Assembly (NCBI RefSeq): GCF_019219095.1
Contig: NZ_JAHUWH010000008.1
Coordinates: 1 to 64,000 of the forward strand
Length of the DNA: 64,000 nt
Source of the DNA: Acidovorax sp. sic0104
Lineage (GTDB): Bacteria; Pseudomonadota; Gammaproteobacteria; Burkholderiales; Burkholderiaceae_C
Direction: 5' to 3'
The notes under the pieces are model-generated. The model did no database searches. It was not told where the DNA came from and worked only from the letters and a program-made list of their open reading frames with translations. Below are positions 19,415-31,117 of the stretch, piece by piece. The position numbers and the translations under genes are program-made. The first letter of the stretch is position 1. Every line of letters begins with the position of its first letter.

Positions 19415-20056
19415 ATGCACGCCACCCGCATCGTTGCCGTCCGCCACGGAGAAACAGCCTGGAACGTGGACACCCGCATCCAGGGCCACCTGGACATTCC
19501 GCTCAACGACACCGGCCTGTGGCAGGCCGAACAGTTGGGCCAGGCGCTGGCCGGCGAGAGCTTTGCCGCGATCTACACCAGCGACCTGCAGCGCGCCCAC
19601 GCCACGGCGCAGGCGGTGCAGCGCACCACCGGCGCGCCGCTGACCACCGTGCCCGGCTTGCGCGAGCGCAGCTTCGGCCACTTCCAGGGCCGCACCTTCG
19701 CCGAGATCGAGGCGGAGCTGCCCGACGATGCCCGCCGCTGGCGCAAGCGCGACCCGCACTACACGCCCGAAGGCGGCGAATCGCTGGTCACCCTGCGCGA
19801 GCGCATCGAGCGCACGGTGATGGCGCTGTCCGCCCCGCACGCGGGCGAGCAGATCCTGCTGGTGGCGCACGGCGGCGTGCTCGACGTTCTGTACCGCCTG
19901 GCCACCCGCCAGGAGACCCAGGCGCCGCGCACCTGGCAGCTGTCGAACGCCGCCATCAACCGTCTGCTGTGGACCCCGGACGGCCTCACCCTGATCGGCT
20001 GGGCCGACACCCAACACCTGGACGACAACGCGGTGCGCGATGAAACCTCTGCCTGA
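19415..20056 (+). CDS. Histidine phosphatase (phosphoglycerate mutase-like)
   Basis: A 213-residue member of the histidine phosphatase superfamily. The catalytic motif is AVRHGETAWN (nucleophile His in RHG). Other parts are SDLQRAHATAQAV (second Arg), LRERSFGHFQG (Glu proton donor region) and LLVAHGGVLDVL (second His). Enzymes of this GpmB/CobC-like branch act on small phosphoesters; it is probably not a glycolytic mutase. The 3' end overlaps the next gene by 17 bases. Confidence 0.9.
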   Translation: MHATRIVAVRHGETAWNVDTRIQGHLDIPLNDTGLWQAEQLGQALAGESFAAIYTSDLQRAHATAQAVQRTTGAPLTTVPGLRERSFGHFQGRTFAEIEAELPDDARRWRKRDPHYTPEGGESLVTLRERIERTVMALSAPHAGEQILLVAHGGVLDVLYRLATRQETQAPRTWQLSNAAINRLLWTPDGLTLIGWADTQHLDDNAVRDETSA

Positions 20057-21245
20057 TGTGCTGAAGACCGCCATCGGCCAGCGCGTGGATCTGATCGACA
20101 CGCCCTCGCTGGTCATCGACCTGGACGCCATGGACCGCAACATCCAGCGCATGGCCGACTTCGCGCGCAAGCACCAGGTGCGCTGGCGCCCGCACGCCAA
20201 GATGCACAAGAGCGCCGAGCTGGCCCTGCAGATGCAGCGTGCCGGCGCGCAGGGCGTGTGCGTGCAGAAAGTCTCCGAAGCCGAGGCCCTGGCCGCAGGC
20301 GGCGTGAACGACATCTACATCAGCAACGAAGTGGTGGCCATGCCCAAGCTGCAACGCGTGGCGCGCCTGGCCGCGCTGCTGGCGGCGCGCGGCGGCCGCC
20401 TGGCCATCGCGGTGGACCACCCCGAAGGCATCGAGCGGCTGGCCGAGACCATCGCCCAGGTCGGTACACCCCAGCCGCGCGAGGGCCACTGGGCGGCGGG
20501 CGACAGCACCTTGATCGACGTGTTCGTGGAGATCGACGTGGGCCAGGGCCGCTGCGGCGTGCCGCCCGGCGAGGCCGCCGTCCCCCTGGCGCTGGCCGTG
20601 GCGCGCAGCCGGGGGCTGCGCTTCGCGGGCCTGCAGGCCTACCACGGCCGTGCCCAGCACCTGGCTGGCGCCGCCGAACGGCGCGAGGCCATCTCCGCCG
20701 TGGTGCGCGCCGCCAGCCACACGCGCGACCTGATCGAGGCCACCGGGCTGCCCGTGCCGCTCATCACCGGCTCGGGCACCGGCACCCTGGTGCACGAGGC
20801 GGCCAGCGGCGTGTACGGCGAGCTGCAGGCGGGCTCGTTCCTCTTCATGGACGCCGACTACGCCCGCAACGAACGCGAGCCGGCGCAACCCACGTTCGAG
20901 CACGCGCTGTTCGTCAAGACCCAGGTGGTGTCGGTGCGAGACACCCACGCCGTCTGTGACGCGGGCCACAAGAGCCACGCCATCGACTCCGGCCTGCCCA
21001 CCGTGGCCCTGCTGCCGCCCGACCGCAGCCTGCGCTACGCCAATGGCGGCGACGAGCACGGCATCCTTCACGCGGACGGCCCCAAGTCCCGCCTGCCGGC
21101 CCTGGGCCGCATGCTGTGGCTCATCCCCGGCCACTGCGACCCCACGGTCAACCTGCACGACGTCATGATCGGCGTGCGCGGCGGCCTCACGATGGGGGTG
21201 GTGGAGCGCATCATCCGGGTTGATGCCAGGGGCGCGCTGACCTGA
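20040..21245 (+). CDS. D-threonine aldolase-like (DSD1 family) PLP enzyme
   Basis: A 401-residue fold-type III PLP enzyme. The alanine-racemase-like N-terminal barrel carries the PLP Lys in WRPHAKMHKSAELA. TGSGTGTLVHEA binds the phosphate. The C-terminal DSD1 domain ends with the metal-ligand pair in PGHCDPTVNLHD. Relatives are D-threonine aldolases or D-serine dehydratases needing Mn or Zn; the substrate here is not certain. It overlaps the histidine phosphatase gene, so the two are co-transcribed. Confidence 0.88.
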   Translation: MKPLPDVLKTAIGQRVDLIDTPSLVIDLDAMDRNIQRMADFARKHQVRWRPHAKMHKSAELALQMQRAGAQGVCVQKVSEAEALAAGGVNDIYISNEVVAMPKLQRVARLAALLAARGGRLAIAVDHPEGIERLAETIAQVGTPQPREGHWAAGDSTLIDVFVEIDVGQGRCGVPPGEAAVPLALAVARSRGLRFAGLQAYHGRAQHLAGAAERREAISAVVRAASHTRDLIEATGLPVPLITGSGTGTLVHEAASGVYGELQAGSFLFMDADYARNEREPAQPTFEHALFVKTQVVSVRDTHAVCDAGHKSHAIDSGLPTVALLPPDRSLRYANGGDEHGILHADGPKSRLPALGRMLWLIPGHCDPTVNLHDVMIGVRGGLTMGVVERIIRVDARGALT

Positions 21246-21281: not shown

Positions 21282-23147
21282 ATGAGCCCCAGCCAGATCA
21301 TCGTCCTTGCCACGCCCGTCTTCTTCCTGCTGATCGCCATCGAGCTGGCGGTCGGCTACAAAAGGCAGCGCAACACCTACCGCCTGGCCGATGCGGTCAG
21401 CAGCATCAGCCTGGGCATGCTGAGCCAGACCAGCGCGGTGTTCACGCGGCTGTTGCGCATCGGCATCTACACCGCGCTGTTCGAGCACATGGCCCTGTGG
21501 CGCAACGACGCGTTCTGGACCAGCCTGCCGGGCTGGGTGCTGGCGCTGGTGTTCTACGATTTTTGCTACTACTGGCTGCACCGCATGGGGCACGAGTCGG
21601 CGGTGCTGTGGGCGGCGCATGCGGTGCACCACCAGAGCCAGGACTACAACCTGTCCACCGCGCTTCGCCAGACCAGCTCGGGCGCGCTGCTGGGCTGGGT
21701 GTTCTACGTGCCCATGGCGCTGGCGGGCGTGCCGCCGCTGGTGTTCGCCGTGGTGGCGCTCATCGACCTGCTCTACCAGTTCTGGGTGCACACCGAGCAG
21801 GTGGGCCGCCTCGGCTGGTTCGACCGCTGGTTCTGCAGCCCCAGCAACCACCGCGTGCACCACGCGGTGAACGACGCCTATCTGGACAAGAACTATGGCG
21901 GCGTCCTCATCGTATGGGACCGGCTGTTCGGCACCTTCAAGGACGAGGACGACCAGGACCGCTGCGTGTACGGCACGCGCGGCCTGCTCAACAGCTGGGA
22001 CCCTCTGTGGGCCAACGCCCAGGTGTATGCAGGCCTGGCGCACGACAGCTGGCATGCGCGCAGCTGGGCTGACAAGGTACGCGTGTGGATCAAGCCCCCG
22101 GGCTGGCGGCCGGCCGATGTGGCCGAGCGTTTTCCCAAGCCCGCGTTCAGCATGTCGCAGATGCAGCTGTACCACCCGCCGATGTCGCGCACGCTGCAGT
22201 GGTTTGCGCTGGTGCAGTTCGCGCTGATGCTCGGCGGCGTGGCGGCCTTCCTGTGGCAGGCCGACAGCGCGCCGCTGGCCGAGAACGCGGTGTGGTTCGC
22301 CACGCTGCTGGTCGCGCAGTGGGCGCTGGGTGCGGCGATGCAGGGGCGCATCGGCATGCTGATGGCGCTGGTGCTGCAAAGCGGCGCGCTGGCCACGGCC
22401 ACCAGCGCGCTGGGGTTCGTGCAGTGGCACTGGGTGTTCAAGCCGTTGACGATGGTTATTGCTATATTTTTGGTAGCTGCCAGCGCTTACCAGTCGGCGC
22501 GAAGAGGCCGATTTCATCCAAAAACATGGTTGCTACTGGGTGCCGCGCTGGCGGGGTCGCTGGCGGGCGATGTGTTCCTGATGTTCGAGGGCTTCTTCAT
22601 CCCCGGGCTGGTGAGCTTTCTGGTGGCCCACCTGTTTTACGTGGCGCTGTTCAAGCAGGGGCAGCGGTGGTTTGCGCACCGGGGGGCGCTGGCGGCCACG
22701 CTGGGTGTGGGCATGGCGATGTACGCCTTCCTGTGGGCGGGCGGGCTGCCGGCCGCGCTGCGGGGGCCTGTGGCCGCGTATGTGCTGGTGATTGCGCTGA
22801 TGGCGGCGCAGGCCATCGGGCGGGCCAGCGTGCTGCGCGACGGGGCAGCGGTGCTGGTGGCGGTGGGGGCCGCGTTCTTCATGCTCAGCGACTCGCTCTT
22901 GGCCACGCACCGCTTCGTCTCGCCCCTGCCGTGGTCGCAGGTGTGGGTGCTGGCCACCTACTACGCGGCGCAGGCGTGCATCGTGGCGGGGGTGTTGAAG
23001 GCAGCGACTGCGACTGCAGCTTCGGTGCCTGTGCCGGAGGCCGGGGCAGCGGGCGGCCTGCCGGTCGCGGTGCCTGCTTGCGCCGGGGCTAGTGCGACCA
23101 CGTGCGGGCCAGGGCTGCGGACGGAACATACACCGCACCCGCAATGA
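21282..23147 (+). CDS. Sterol desaturase/AGMO-like and YhhN (lysoplasmalogenase-like) fusion
   Basis: A 621-residue polytopic membrane protein with two parts. Residues 1 to about 290 form a fatty-acid hydroxylase/sterol desaturase domain with the di-iron histidine clusters HRMGH, HAVHH and HRVHH. Residues from about 300 to 595 form a YhhN/TMEM86 domain of about eight helices. Relatives of the two halves act on ether lipids in animals: alkylglycerol monooxygenase and lysoplasmalogenase. The junction between the first and second helices of the YhhN part (about 390-415) is encoded by a palindromic mini-element (22455-22525). The 3' end overlaps the convergent membrane-protein gene by 59 bases. 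Confidence 0.88.
   Translation: MSPSQIIVLATPVFFLLIAIELAVGYKRQRNTYRLADAVSSISLGMLSQTSAVFTRLLRIGIYTALFEHMALWRNDAFWTSLPGWVLALVFYDFCYYWLHRMGHESAVLWAAHAVHHQSQDYNLSTALRQTSSGALLGWVFYVPMALAGVPPLVFAVVALIDLLYQFWVHTEQVGRLGWFDRWFCSPSNHRVHHAVNDAYLDKNYGGVLIVWDRLFGTFKDEDDQDRCVYGTRGLLNSWDPLWANAQVYAGLAHDSWHARSWADKVRVWIKPPGWRPADVAERFPKPAFSMSQMQLYHPPMSRTLQWFALVQFALMLGGVAAFLWQADSAPLAENAVWFATLLVAQWALGAAMQGRIGMLMALVLQSGALATATSALGFVQWHWVFKPLTMVIAIFLVAASAYQSARRGRFHPKTWLLLGAALAGSLAGDVFLMFEGFFIPGLVSFLVAHLFYVALFKQGQRWFAHRGALAATLGVGMAMYAFLWAGGLPAALRGPVAAYVLVIALMAAQAIGRASVLRDGAAVLVAVGAAFFMLSDSLLATHRFVSPLPWSQVWVLATYYAAQACIVAGVLKAATATAASVPVPEAGAAGGLPVAVPACAGASATTCGPGLRTEHTPHPQ
22455..22525 (+). repeat. Palindromic mini-element copy inside the desaturase-YhhN gene
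   Basis: It contains TAGCTGCCAGCGCTTACCAG and then GCGCGAAGAGGCCGATTT, flanked by T-rich and A-rich ends (TATTTTTGG and CCAAAAA). It matches the copies at 28320 and 61555. It is read in-frame as part of a membrane helix and the following loop. Confidence 0.7.
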
Positions 23148-24000
23148 ACAGTGCGCCTGCCAGGGTGAAAACGCCCCCACTGAGCAGCCACAGCAGCGTG
23201 TCGGCGTTGTACCAGCCGGGCCGCGCCTGCAGCAGGGCGACCATGACGGGCTCCTGCACCGCGATCAAGCCCCGCCCTGCGGTGTAGTGGTAGACGGCGC
23301 CGCCCAGCGCCCAGAACCCTGTCAGCACACACGCCAGGCCATAGAACGCATACCCGGTGCGCCATCGCTTGGTGGTGCCTGCCGTGCACCACACACCCAG
23401 GCAACCCGCCAACAGGGCGCCGACCACCGACAAGCCCTGAAAGCGGTCGCTCGCCACCGGCAGCAGCCAATGCCAGGCCCAGGGCAAGGGAGCGAGCAGC
23501 CATTCCGATTGCGGCCCCAGCCCCGGCCAGCGCTGGAGGGGCAGGTCCATCGAAATGCGCGGCTTGTCCACCATCGCCAGCACGAATGTCACGGGCACCA
23601 GCACGGCGGACAGGACGTATGCGCTGGCGCGCCCGACCAGCATGCGGTGTGACCACTCGGCAGTCGTCCTGCCCAGCCGTTGCCGGTCGATGAGGTGCAG
23701 CATCAGGCCGGCGGCCAGGGCGGCTTCGGCGATCGCGCCGCACACGGCCACGCGGCCGCGCAGGTCGGCAAAGCCCTCCAGCATGAACACCGAGAGCTGC
23801 CCGTACACGAGCGCGCCCAGCGCATGCAGCGCCACCGTGCCCGCCAGCAAGGCCCATGCGCAGGACCTCAGGAAGTGTTGCTCGGGCGACCGCTCCGGCC
23901 CGTCAGAGCCGACCCCGCCCCGCGCGGCGCGCGCCCGGGCTTCGGCACGGAGCTGGCTGCGGCGGTCGTTCTTCTTGTTGGGCTTGCGCGGTGGTGCCAT
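23089..24000 (-). CDS. Polytopic membrane protein of unknown function
   Basis: A 303-residue protein. A basic, Arg/Lys-rich N-terminus (PPRKPNKKNDRRSQLRAEAR) is followed by about seven hydrophobic segments between residues 45 and 300. I recognise no family and no catalytic motif. Its last 59 bases overlap the 3' end of the convergent desaturase-YhhN gene. It starts 64 bases downstream of the ruvB stop, so it may be transcribed as the last gene of the ruvA-protease-ruvB unit. Confidence 0.65.
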   Translation of the reverse strand: MAPPRKPNKKNDRRSQLRAEARARAARGGVGSDGPERSPEQHFLRSCAWALLAGTVALHALGALVYGQLSVFMLEGFADLRGRVAVCGAIAEAALAAGLMLHLIDRQRLGRTTAEWSHRMLVGRASAYVLSAVLVPVTFVLAMVDKPRISMDLPLQRWPGLGPQSEWLLAPLPWAWHWLLPVASDRFQGLSVVGALLAGCLGVWCTAGTTKRWRTGYAFYGLACVLTGFWALGGAVYHYTAGRGLIAVQEPVMVALLQARPGWYNADTLLWLLSGGVFTLAGALFIAGAVYVPSAALARTWSH

Positions 24001-24063: not shown

Positions 24064-25125
<1,062 letters not shown>

Positions 25126-28839: not shown

Positions 28840-29122
28840 AAATGCGCCGCCAAAACCCCTGACTCACGCCAGAAGAAGCAAGCAACTCGTATCTTTGGTT
28901 TTTTTACCGAATGGTGTAAAAACTTCAGGGAAAGCAGGGAGCGGGATTCTGGAAAGAGAGCGACCGCAGCGCTGGCAGAGGCCGCATGACAAGGCCTGCA
29001 GCACTCCAGGTTTTTTTTGAGTGTCCATGTGCAAGGCGGGCGGCCCCGGTCGATGGGGCGGCTCGGCACGCGGCACGCCGCTACCCTTGCAGGCGTTGAC
29101 ACCAGCACATCGAAAGGAACCC
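28840..29122. other. Intergenic region, no gene seen
   Basis: It contains an AT-rich imperfect hairpin (GTTTTTTTAC ... GTAAAAAC, about 28897-28922) and an eight-T run near 29011-29018. These could end ybeY transcripts or form part of the promoter for the FG-GAP lipoprotein. No coding region is convincing. Confidence 0.4.
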
Positions 29123-31117
29123 ATGGCCCCGTCCCGTCCATACCGCAGCGCGCTGCTGCTTGCCTTGCCCCTGGCACTGGCCGCCTGCGGTGGCGGCTCG
29201 GGCAGTCCCGAGGCGTCCGGCCCGCCAGCTCCGGCGGGCTTTGAAGCGAGCCCCGGCACAAGGACCAAGGGCTATCTTTTCACCTGGAATGCCAGCGCAA
29301 GCGCCACGCGCTACGAGCTTTTCGAAGACCCCGACGGCGCCAGCGGGCCCTTGCCCGAAGCGCAGATCGCCCAGACGCCGAGCACTTCATATGCGGTTGA
29401 TTTGCAGAACAAGCTGCTGCACGAGCGTGTGAACGCCACCTACCGCGTGCGCGCTTGCGACGCCAGCGGATGCGGCCCCTTCACGGCCGCGCTCACCCCC
29501 GACATCGCCCAGGCGATCGGCTACTTCAAGGCGAGCAACAGCGGCAAGGGGGACGCATTCGGCAGCGCCGTGGCGCTGTCCTCCAATGGACTGACCATGG
29601 CCGTGGGCGCGCCCGGCGAGCGCAGCAATGCCACCTGCATCGCGGCCGTCACCACGGACTCTGGCTGCGACTTCGCCAACGACTCGATCGTCAACGCAGG
29701 CGCCGTCTACGTGTTCAGCCGCGCCACCCGGGCGCCCGTCTGGGTACAGACTGGCTACCTCAAGGCCAGCAACAACCGCGCCTATGACGTCCAGGGCTAT
29801 CTCGACAACGGCCCCCGCTTCGGCACCAGCCTCGCCCTGTCGGCCGACGGCACCGTGCTGGTGGTGGGCGCCCCCGGCGAGACCAGCAGCGCGCGGGGGG
29901 TGAACGGCAACTCCGCCAACACCCAGACCCAGGGAGCAGGCGCCGTGTATGTGTTCAAGAGCTTCCAGAGTCCGTTCAACCGGATATGGCGGCAAGAGGC
30001 CTACATCAAGGCCAGCAACACCCTCGCCCAAGCCGTGTACAACACCGACATCATGGGCCGCTACGTGCGCGCGCCACAGGCGTTCGGCACCAGCGTGGCC
30101 CTGTCGGCCGATGGTGCCTTGCTGGCCGTGGGCGCACCGGGCGACCGCAGCAATGCAACCGGCGTCAACGGCGACCAGCAGGACAGCTCGCTGGAGCTGG
30201 CAGGCGCCGTGTACACCTACGCGCGCAGTATCCCGAGCACCGACAGCGGCGACACCCCGGAAGCCACCTGGACCCACCGCGCCTACCTGAAAGCCAGCAA
30301 TACGCGGGGCCCTTTCGGGCTGCGCTTTGGCGCATCCGTCGCGCTGGCTGGCGACGGCCTGACCCTGGCGGTCGGCGCTCCGTTCGAAAACGGGGGCTCA
30401 CCGGGCGTCAACGGCAATCAGGATGACACGTCCGCCAACTACGCGGGGGCGGTCTACATGTTCACGCAGCGCAGCGGCGAATGGAGCCAGCAGGCCTACG
30501 TCAAGGCGTCCAACCCGGGGTCCGGCGATGCCTTCGGCGGCAAGGTGGCGCTGTCGGCCAACGGGGATACCCTGGCGGTGGGTGCCCAGGAGGAGACGGC
30601 GTCGGGCACGGGCGTCAACAAGCCGCAGGGTGAACGCACCCTGGCGCGCGCCGGCGCCGCCTACCTGTTCACGCGCAGTGCGGGGGCGTGGAGCCAGCAG
30701 GCCTATCTCAAGTCCAGCAATACCGGCATGGGCCAATGGTACGGTTCGAGCCTGGCGCTTTCCGCCGACGGCAACACGCTGGCCGTCGGCGCGATGGGAG
30801 AAGCCAGCAGCGCCAGGGGCATCAACGGCAAGCAGGCTGACAACACCGCAGACGGCGCGGGCGCAGCCTACGTCTACCAGCGAAGCGGCGACACCTGGAC
30901 CCAGCGCTCCTACCTCAAGGCCAGCAACACCGATGCAGGCGATCTCTTCGGCGCCAGCGTTGCCCTGTCTGGTGACGGAACCACCCTGGCAGTGGGCGCC
31001 ACCAGCGAGGACAGCACCGCCAGCACGGTCCAGGGCGACCAGGCAGACAACTCGGGGGCGCCTGTCCTGCCCACGCTCGGCCCGACCCCCAGCGTTGGCG
31101 CGGTCTACATGTACTGA
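29123..31117 (+). CDS. FG-GAP repeat lipoprotein, predicted seven-bladed propeller
   Basis: A 664-residue exported lipoprotein (lipobox LALAAC followed by a GGGSGS spacer). After a fibronectin-III-like segment there are seven repeats of the form FGxSVALSADGxTLAVGAPGE, each followed by a segment like AGAVYVF ... W ... YLKASN. This matches seven blades of an integrin-alpha-type beta-propeller. Asp/Asn-rich loops (NGNQDD, NGDQQD) may bind calcium. It is likely a surface adhesion or binding protein; the partner is unknown. I chose the ATG at 29123, with GAAAGGA upstream, because it gives a clean signal peptide. Confidence 0.82.
   Translation: MAPSRPYRSALLLALPLALAACGGGSGSPEASGPPAPAGFEASPGTRTKGYLFTWNASASATRYELFEDPDGASGPLPEAQIAQTPSTSYAVDLQNKLLHERVNATYRVRACDASGCGPFTAALTPDIAQAIGYFKASNSGKGDAFGSAVALSSNGLTMAVGAPGERSNATCIAAVTTDSGCDFANDSIVNAGAVYVFSRATRAPVWVQTGYLKASNNRAYDVQGYLDNGPRFGTSLALSADGTVLVVGAPGETSSARGVNGNSANTQTQGAGAVYVFKSFQSPFNRIWRQEAYIKASNTLAQAVYNTDIMGRYVRAPQAFGTSVALSADGALLAVGAPGDRSNATGVNGDQQDSSLELAGAVYTYARSIPSTDSGDTPEATWTHRAYLKASNTRGPFGLRFGASVALAGDGLTLAVGAPFENGGSPGVNGNQDDTSANYAGAVYMFTQRSGEWSQQAYVKASNPGSGDAFGGKVALSANGDTLAVGAQEETASGTGVNKPQGERTLARAGAAYLFTRSAGAWSQQAYLKSSNTGMGQWYGSSLALSADGNTLAVGAMGEASSARGINGKQADNTADGAGAAYVYQRSGDTWTQRSYLKASNTDAGDLFGASVALSGDGTTLAVGATSEDSTASTVQGDQADNSGAPVLPTLGPTPSVGAVYMY

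Follow-up and report, generated by a model that had tools for sequence, protein, structure and literature searches.

The fusion described here is real, old and conserved, and it joins two known enzyme families in one membrane protein. In the window analysed (64,000 nucleotides of Acidovorax sp. sic0104, a bacterium of a kind common in soil and water), an uninterrupted open reading frame at 21282-23147 of the forward strand, starting with ATG at 21282, encodes 621 residues, of which the N-terminal half resembles alkylglycerol monooxygenase (AGMO) and the C-terminal half is of the YhhN, or lysoplasmalogenase-like, type (Table 1). We consider it fairly probable, at about 60%, that this protein is a bifunctional enzyme cleaving the sn-1 ether bond of lyso-ether lipids, with both halves active. 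The coordinates given for the fusion in an earlier note on this DNA were right, and both domains were found far above the Pfam cut-off: FA_hydroxylase (PF04116) at residues 85-218 (E 2.8e-31) and YhhN (PF07947) at residues 382-571 (E 1.9e-43, a full-length match covering profile positions 1-182 of 182). The same architecture is clearly present in 34 of 200 Comamonadaceae genomes and in the best 80 named loci, which rules out a chance or assembly join. No earlier paper on an AGMO-YhhN fusion was found in the literature searched, and public records annotate bacterial AGMO-like proteins only as "sterol desaturase family protein".

Table 1. Position of the fused gene, its parts and its conserved neighbours in the window
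Feature	Position	Strand	Basis or remark
Alanine-racemase-N / D-serine-dehydratase-like PLP enzyme (D-threonine aldolase type)	20040..21245	+	Conserved upstream neighbour
Fused AGMO-like / YhhN membrane protein, 621 aa	21282..23147	+	ORF, Pfam, relatives, AlphaFold2 model
AGMO-like half, residues 1-358	21282..22355	+	N-terminal hydrophobic helices, di-iron core, helices 303-326 and 332-353
Pfam FA_hydroxylase core, residues 85-218	21534..21935	+	Pfam match and 15 AGMO-type residues
YhhN (lysoplasmalogenase-like) half, residues ~359-580, eight helices	22356..23021	+	Pfam, residues, model
C-terminal tail, residues 581-621	23022..23144	+	Low model confidence; not conserved
ruvB, locus landmark outside the system	24064..25125	-	Conserved downstream marker

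The junction between the two halves is sharp. Most unfused AGMO relatives from Comamonadaceae resemble the fused protein only up to about residues 352-361, and several free-standing YhhN relatives begin to do so at residues 351-367. AlphaFold2 modelled the whole fused chain with a mean pLDDT of 90.6 and a pTM of 0.87 (47 aligned relatives as input), the last 31 residues being disordered. Sequence searches of the PDB, with the single protein and with a profile of the AGMO half, returned no solved relative, and Foldseek searches with models of both halves gave nothing below E 0.001.

The distribution of the fusion was followed in Pseudomonadota genome samples and in the best 80 genome matches. 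Fused relatives are roughly 60-90% identical over nearly their full length; among the best 80 matches they belong to Acidovorax, Diaphorobacter, Hydrogenophaga, Polaromonas, Comamonas, Delftia, Curvibacter, Caenimonas, Ramlibacter, Hylemonella and Variovorax, the window protein being nearest to those of Acidovorax. All fusions seen in 369 class-level and 398 phylum-level genomes fall within Comamonadaceae. An open frame of 625 aa (L189) taken for a fusion outside the family was rejected, being an unfused AGMO-like protein, and two loci considered as carriers of a different N-terminal domain (L056 and L201) most likely hold a truncated fusion preceded by a non-coding frame that happens to be open. 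Plasmid records contain AGMO-like proteins and no full-length fused ones. More distant AGMO-like genes, about 44-46% identical, were also noted (L052 at G113:C8:4100-7300, and plasmid matches H3-H5); these distant genes are carried by plasmids of Delftia sp. KV29 and Pseudomonas aeruginosa and by a small contig of G113, a fusion-bearing genome. Three genomes of 0.9-1.3 Mb, at least 96% complete (L079, L083 and L084), have kept long AGMO-like genes and have no YhhN, which suggests that, where the genome is reduced, the AGMO half is important even without its partner.

With its PF04116 match and the nine histidines of the di-iron site, the N-terminal half is a member of the FA_hydroxylase / sterol desaturase superfamily. 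Human AGMO (TMEM195, EC 1.14.16.5) needs these nine histidines together with Q162, D233, N235, Y236, W243 and D244 (PMC7911779). All 15 essential residues are present in the fused protein, as H100, H104, H113, H116, H117, Q130, H170, H190, H193, H194, D202, N204, Y205, W212 and D213, in the same order and with near-identical spacing, the numbering being shifted by minus 32 for the first six and by minus 31 for the last nine. Among 112 fused proteins, these 15 residues and the eight TMEM86 residues considered below (23 in all) are 98-100% conserved. Two control sets were considered: in 14 shorter FA_hydroxylase proteins the histidines are fully conserved and the other AGMO residues are present in 71-100% of cases, and five distant paralogues keep the non-histidine residues only partly. 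Since the AGMO residues are largely common to the shorter relatives, the residue test is better evidence of a working di-iron enzyme than of any one substrate. Behind the core, helices 303-326 and 332-353 occupy the places of AGMO TM6-7. The topology of human AGMO includes a further C-terminal pair, TM8-9 (PMC7911779), and several gammaproteobacterial AGMO relatives outside Comamonadaceae have similar additional C-terminal hydrophobic stretches; unlike these, the fused protein lacks the last two helices, and their positions are taken by YhhN helices. Most unfused AGMO-like proteins read in Comamonadaceae stop soon after TM7, the point where YhhN starts in the fused form. Residues 213-383 taken alone match no Pfam family. 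In structure comparison of the AGMO half, the only solved chain aligned over most of the di-iron core was the fatty-acid hydroxylase Scs7p, in a weak alignment (Z 5.8, rmsd 5.2, 167 residues) that stood alongside many partial helix-pair matches.

The superfamily also contains enzymes acting on other lipids. Among NCBIfam models, the di-iron half matches the ornithine-lipid hydroxylase OlsE best (NF052566, E 2e-18), which is in favour of another reading: the di-iron half would hydroxylate a lipid of the bacterium itself (ornithine or another amino lipid, or a fatty acyl chain), the YhhN half would act on a different lysolipid, and the fusion would serve to remodel or renew the envelope of the cell itself. 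The match, however, scores 66.8 bits, far under the cut-off of 475 bits, and YhhN enzymes studied to date cleave vinyl ethers; we regard this reading as unlikely. In structure comparison of the AGMO half, the only solved chain aligned over most of the di-iron core was the fatty-acid hydroxylase Scs7p, in a weak alignment (Z 5.8, rmsd 5.2, 167 residues) that stood alongside many partial helix-pair matches.

Eight catalytic residues have been proposed for TMEM86A/B, and mutating all but the first glycine reduced activity (PMC11994398). All eight are found in the fused protein with similar spacing (K387, G429, D430, H450, G529, S536, D537 and Y560). In structure comparison the YhhN half aligns to rhodopsin/GPCR-like bundles with Z up to 12.5, a value that helical bundles may reach by arrangement alone. 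The full-length Pfam match, the eight residues and the helical bundle are features shared with the YhhN/TMEM86 lysoplasmalogenases (EC 3.3.2.2), of which the YhhN proteins of Legionella and M. tuberculosis (Rv1401) have been demonstrated biochemically (PMC11994398, PMC9052158); unlike those free-standing enzymes, this half is joined behind an AGMO-like one. That the residues reported as essential in the two animal enzymes are all present upholds the domain identities of the earlier note and its ether-lipid theme, to which the co-occurrence of the separate genes also lends weight.

A non-lipid function has a bacterial precedent, as the single characterised bacterial relative encountered in the papers searched, an AGMO-like enzyme of Pseudoalteromonas rubra, cyclises prodigiosin to cycloprodigiosin (PMC7911779). 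We compared this enzyme by description only: it is likewise a bacterial AGMO-like member, and differs in having a pigment as substrate. By analogy, the fusion could have drifted to the oxidation of a special metabolite, with the YhhN half as a membrane anchor or carrier. This is very improbable, as 99-100% of the 112 fused proteins retain the catalytic residues proposed for YhhN, the YhhN half is retained alone after loss of the di-iron half (see below), and no biosynthetic cluster lies near the fusion.

The association of the two families extends to genomes where the genes are separate. Raw counts of non-independent genomes of any size, with a count by taxonomic families limiting the concern about kinship, gave the following picture: of the Comamonadaceae genomes, 41 carry an unfused AGMO-like gene, and a separate YhhN gene accompanies it in 31 of these, vs 12 of the 120 genomes without one (Fisher p 5e-15); in other Gammaproteobacteria YhhN is present in 5 of 12 genomes with a shorter AGMO relative, and in 9 of 13 with a long-type AGMO-like gene vs 2 of 341 with neither (p 2e-13, or about 4e-9 when taxonomic families are counted). 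These unfused genes are unlinked, and lie far apart in sister genera. The conserved fusion and the strong co-occurrence of the separate genes are good evidence that the AGMO-like and YhhN proteins, as judged from gene content, belong to one process, most simply the breakdown of ether lipids. A general acyl hydroxylase would hardly be expected to show such co-occurrence across many families, which again argues against action on the bacterium's own lipids. It bears also on the idea that the join was accidental and had no joint function, two independent lipid enzymes each being kept as useful. Later independent loss of either half agrees with that idea; against it, unlinked co-occurrence across many families indicates a shared setting, and the distance between the genes in sister genera means that the fusion required relocating one gene and not a short deletion. 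We hold an accidental join to be quite improbable.

The earlier note had proposed a phylogeny of each half. By their AGMO halves the fused proteins fall into a single group, with a few unfused rows nested inside; by their YhhN halves they likewise fall into a single group, with full support, which includes six free-standing rows and lies far from the YhhN of sister genera. The pattern looks like that of a single fusion event. The unfused AGMO genes of sister genera occupy the same ruvB locus as the fusion, and the simplest and probable history, as read from the trees and gene order, is that one event attached a YhhN gene to the AGMO gene lying there. The losses that followed affect both halves: YhhN is kept without the di-iron domain in six lineages (L054, L055, L056, L057, L058 and L059), and the YhhN half appears to have been lost in L034 and possibly also in L047, L051 and L191, on branch supports that are modest and given by SH-aLRT only.

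How the two halves would work together depends on the substrates of their animal relatives. Mammalian AGMO takes alkylglycerols and lyso-alkylglycerophospholipids, provided that the sn-2 hydroxyl is free, and does not act on vinyl ethers, i.e. plasmalogens and lysoplasmalogens (PMC3617469); the substrates of lysoplasmalogenase are vinyl-ether lysolipids (PMC9052158). In the proposed mechanism, the N-terminal di-iron half would work like AGMO and oxidise the carbon adjacent to the saturated (alkyl) ether bond; the resulting hemiacetal would decay into a fatty aldehyde and the glycerol moiety. The C-terminal YhhN half would hydrolyse the vinyl (alkenyl) ether bond of lysoplasmalogens to the same kind of product. 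Both ether types would be handled in one place, the fatty aldehyde being fed to oxidation, and the halves would work in parallel, one on the alkyl and the other on the alkenyl form of lyso-ether lipids, not in series.

Gene fusions often join successive steps, and the earlier note had suggested consecutive steps for this one. The halves would then act in turn on one ether lipid, the product of one passing to the other. The confident model of the whole chain (pTM 0.87) can be counted in favour of this. Even so, this part of the note found no support and is probably wrong: mammalian AGMO refuses plasmalogens and lysoplasmalogens and both enzymes end in an aldehyde (PMC3617469), so that neither half makes the substrate of the other, and several lineages have lost one half while keeping the other, which speaks against a two-step channel that needs both. 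Sequential action is thus highly improbable; parallel cleavage fits better, and the halves are more likely complementary tools for the same class of lysolipid.

The substrates of such a dual de-etherase would most likely be foreign lipids, from animals, protists, myxobacteria or anaerobes, which the cell would use as food or get rid of on account of the toxicity of lysolipids. CarF/PEDS1 (TMEM189), the plasmanylethanolamine desaturase, is like the fused protein a membrane enzyme of ether-lipid metabolism; unlike it, CarF/PEDS1 makes plasmalogens, where the fusion would degrade ether lipids. No homologue was found in the genome of the strain, and it is absent from 198 of the 200 Comamonadaceae genomes, in agreement with the earlier note that these are not typical Comamonadaceae lipids. 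The aerobic plasmalogen route is therefore missing, which makes foreign lipids the likelier substrates and counts against a role in the cell's own envelope. One of the only two CarF/PEDS1-type lipid desaturase genes in the 200 genomes lies in the fusion-bearing G113 (G113:C3:291919-292407). M. tuberculosis is also devoid of plasmalogens; the presence of YhhN in bacteria that make none has been stated as a puzzle for this species, and a protective or catabolic role was proposed for its YhhN (PMC9052158).

The electron donor of the di-iron half may be a reduced pterin. A pterin source is plausible, since phenylalanine hydroxylase and pterin-carbinolamine dehydratase are encoded in the genome of the strain. 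In Comamonadaceae, phenylalanine hydroxylase shows no enrichment with AGMO (37/75 vs 68/125, p 0.56), so that pterin dependence is unsupported by gene content. More generally, aerobic Gammaproteobacteria may possess a dedicated ether-lipid degradation pathway consisting of AGMO and lysoplasmalogenase, fused in Comamonadaceae into a dual de-etherase whose cofactor is a bacterial tetrahydropterin and which clears lyso-ether lipids of both the alkyl and the alkenyl type, a proposal that we put at somewhat less than even odds. No bacterial AGMO-like protein active on ether lipids was found in the literature searched. The fusion protein gives a testable handle on the role of bacterial AGMO-like and YhhN proteins; if the reading is true, it would extend AGMO activity to bacteria and could provide, from a bacterium, an enzyme that has been refractory to purification from animal sources (PMC7911779).

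At the locus itself, the upstream aldolase-like gene ends 36 bases before the fusion on the same strand. Among the best 80 loci it is conserved in 55, with a gap under 150 bases in 36, and a transcript shared with the fusion is possible; either this gene or the downstream ruvB is kept in 71. Such a fixed chromosomal place across Comamonadaceae might be expected of a core envelope function, and to that extent favours action of the di-iron half on the bacterium's own lipids. As a functional partner the aldolase-like gene was set aside: it also adjoins unfused AGMO genes at the ruvB locus, and so looks like inherited gene order. The conserved neighbours are not lipid genes, which, like the separate loss of either half, counts against the ether-lipid reading. 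An ORF of 303 aa on the reverse strand (23089-24000), with no Pfam match, overlaps the tail of the fusion and is present in 6 of the best 80 related loci. Further downstream, a large ORF of 698 aa (29021-31117, forward strand) contains FG-GAP repeats.
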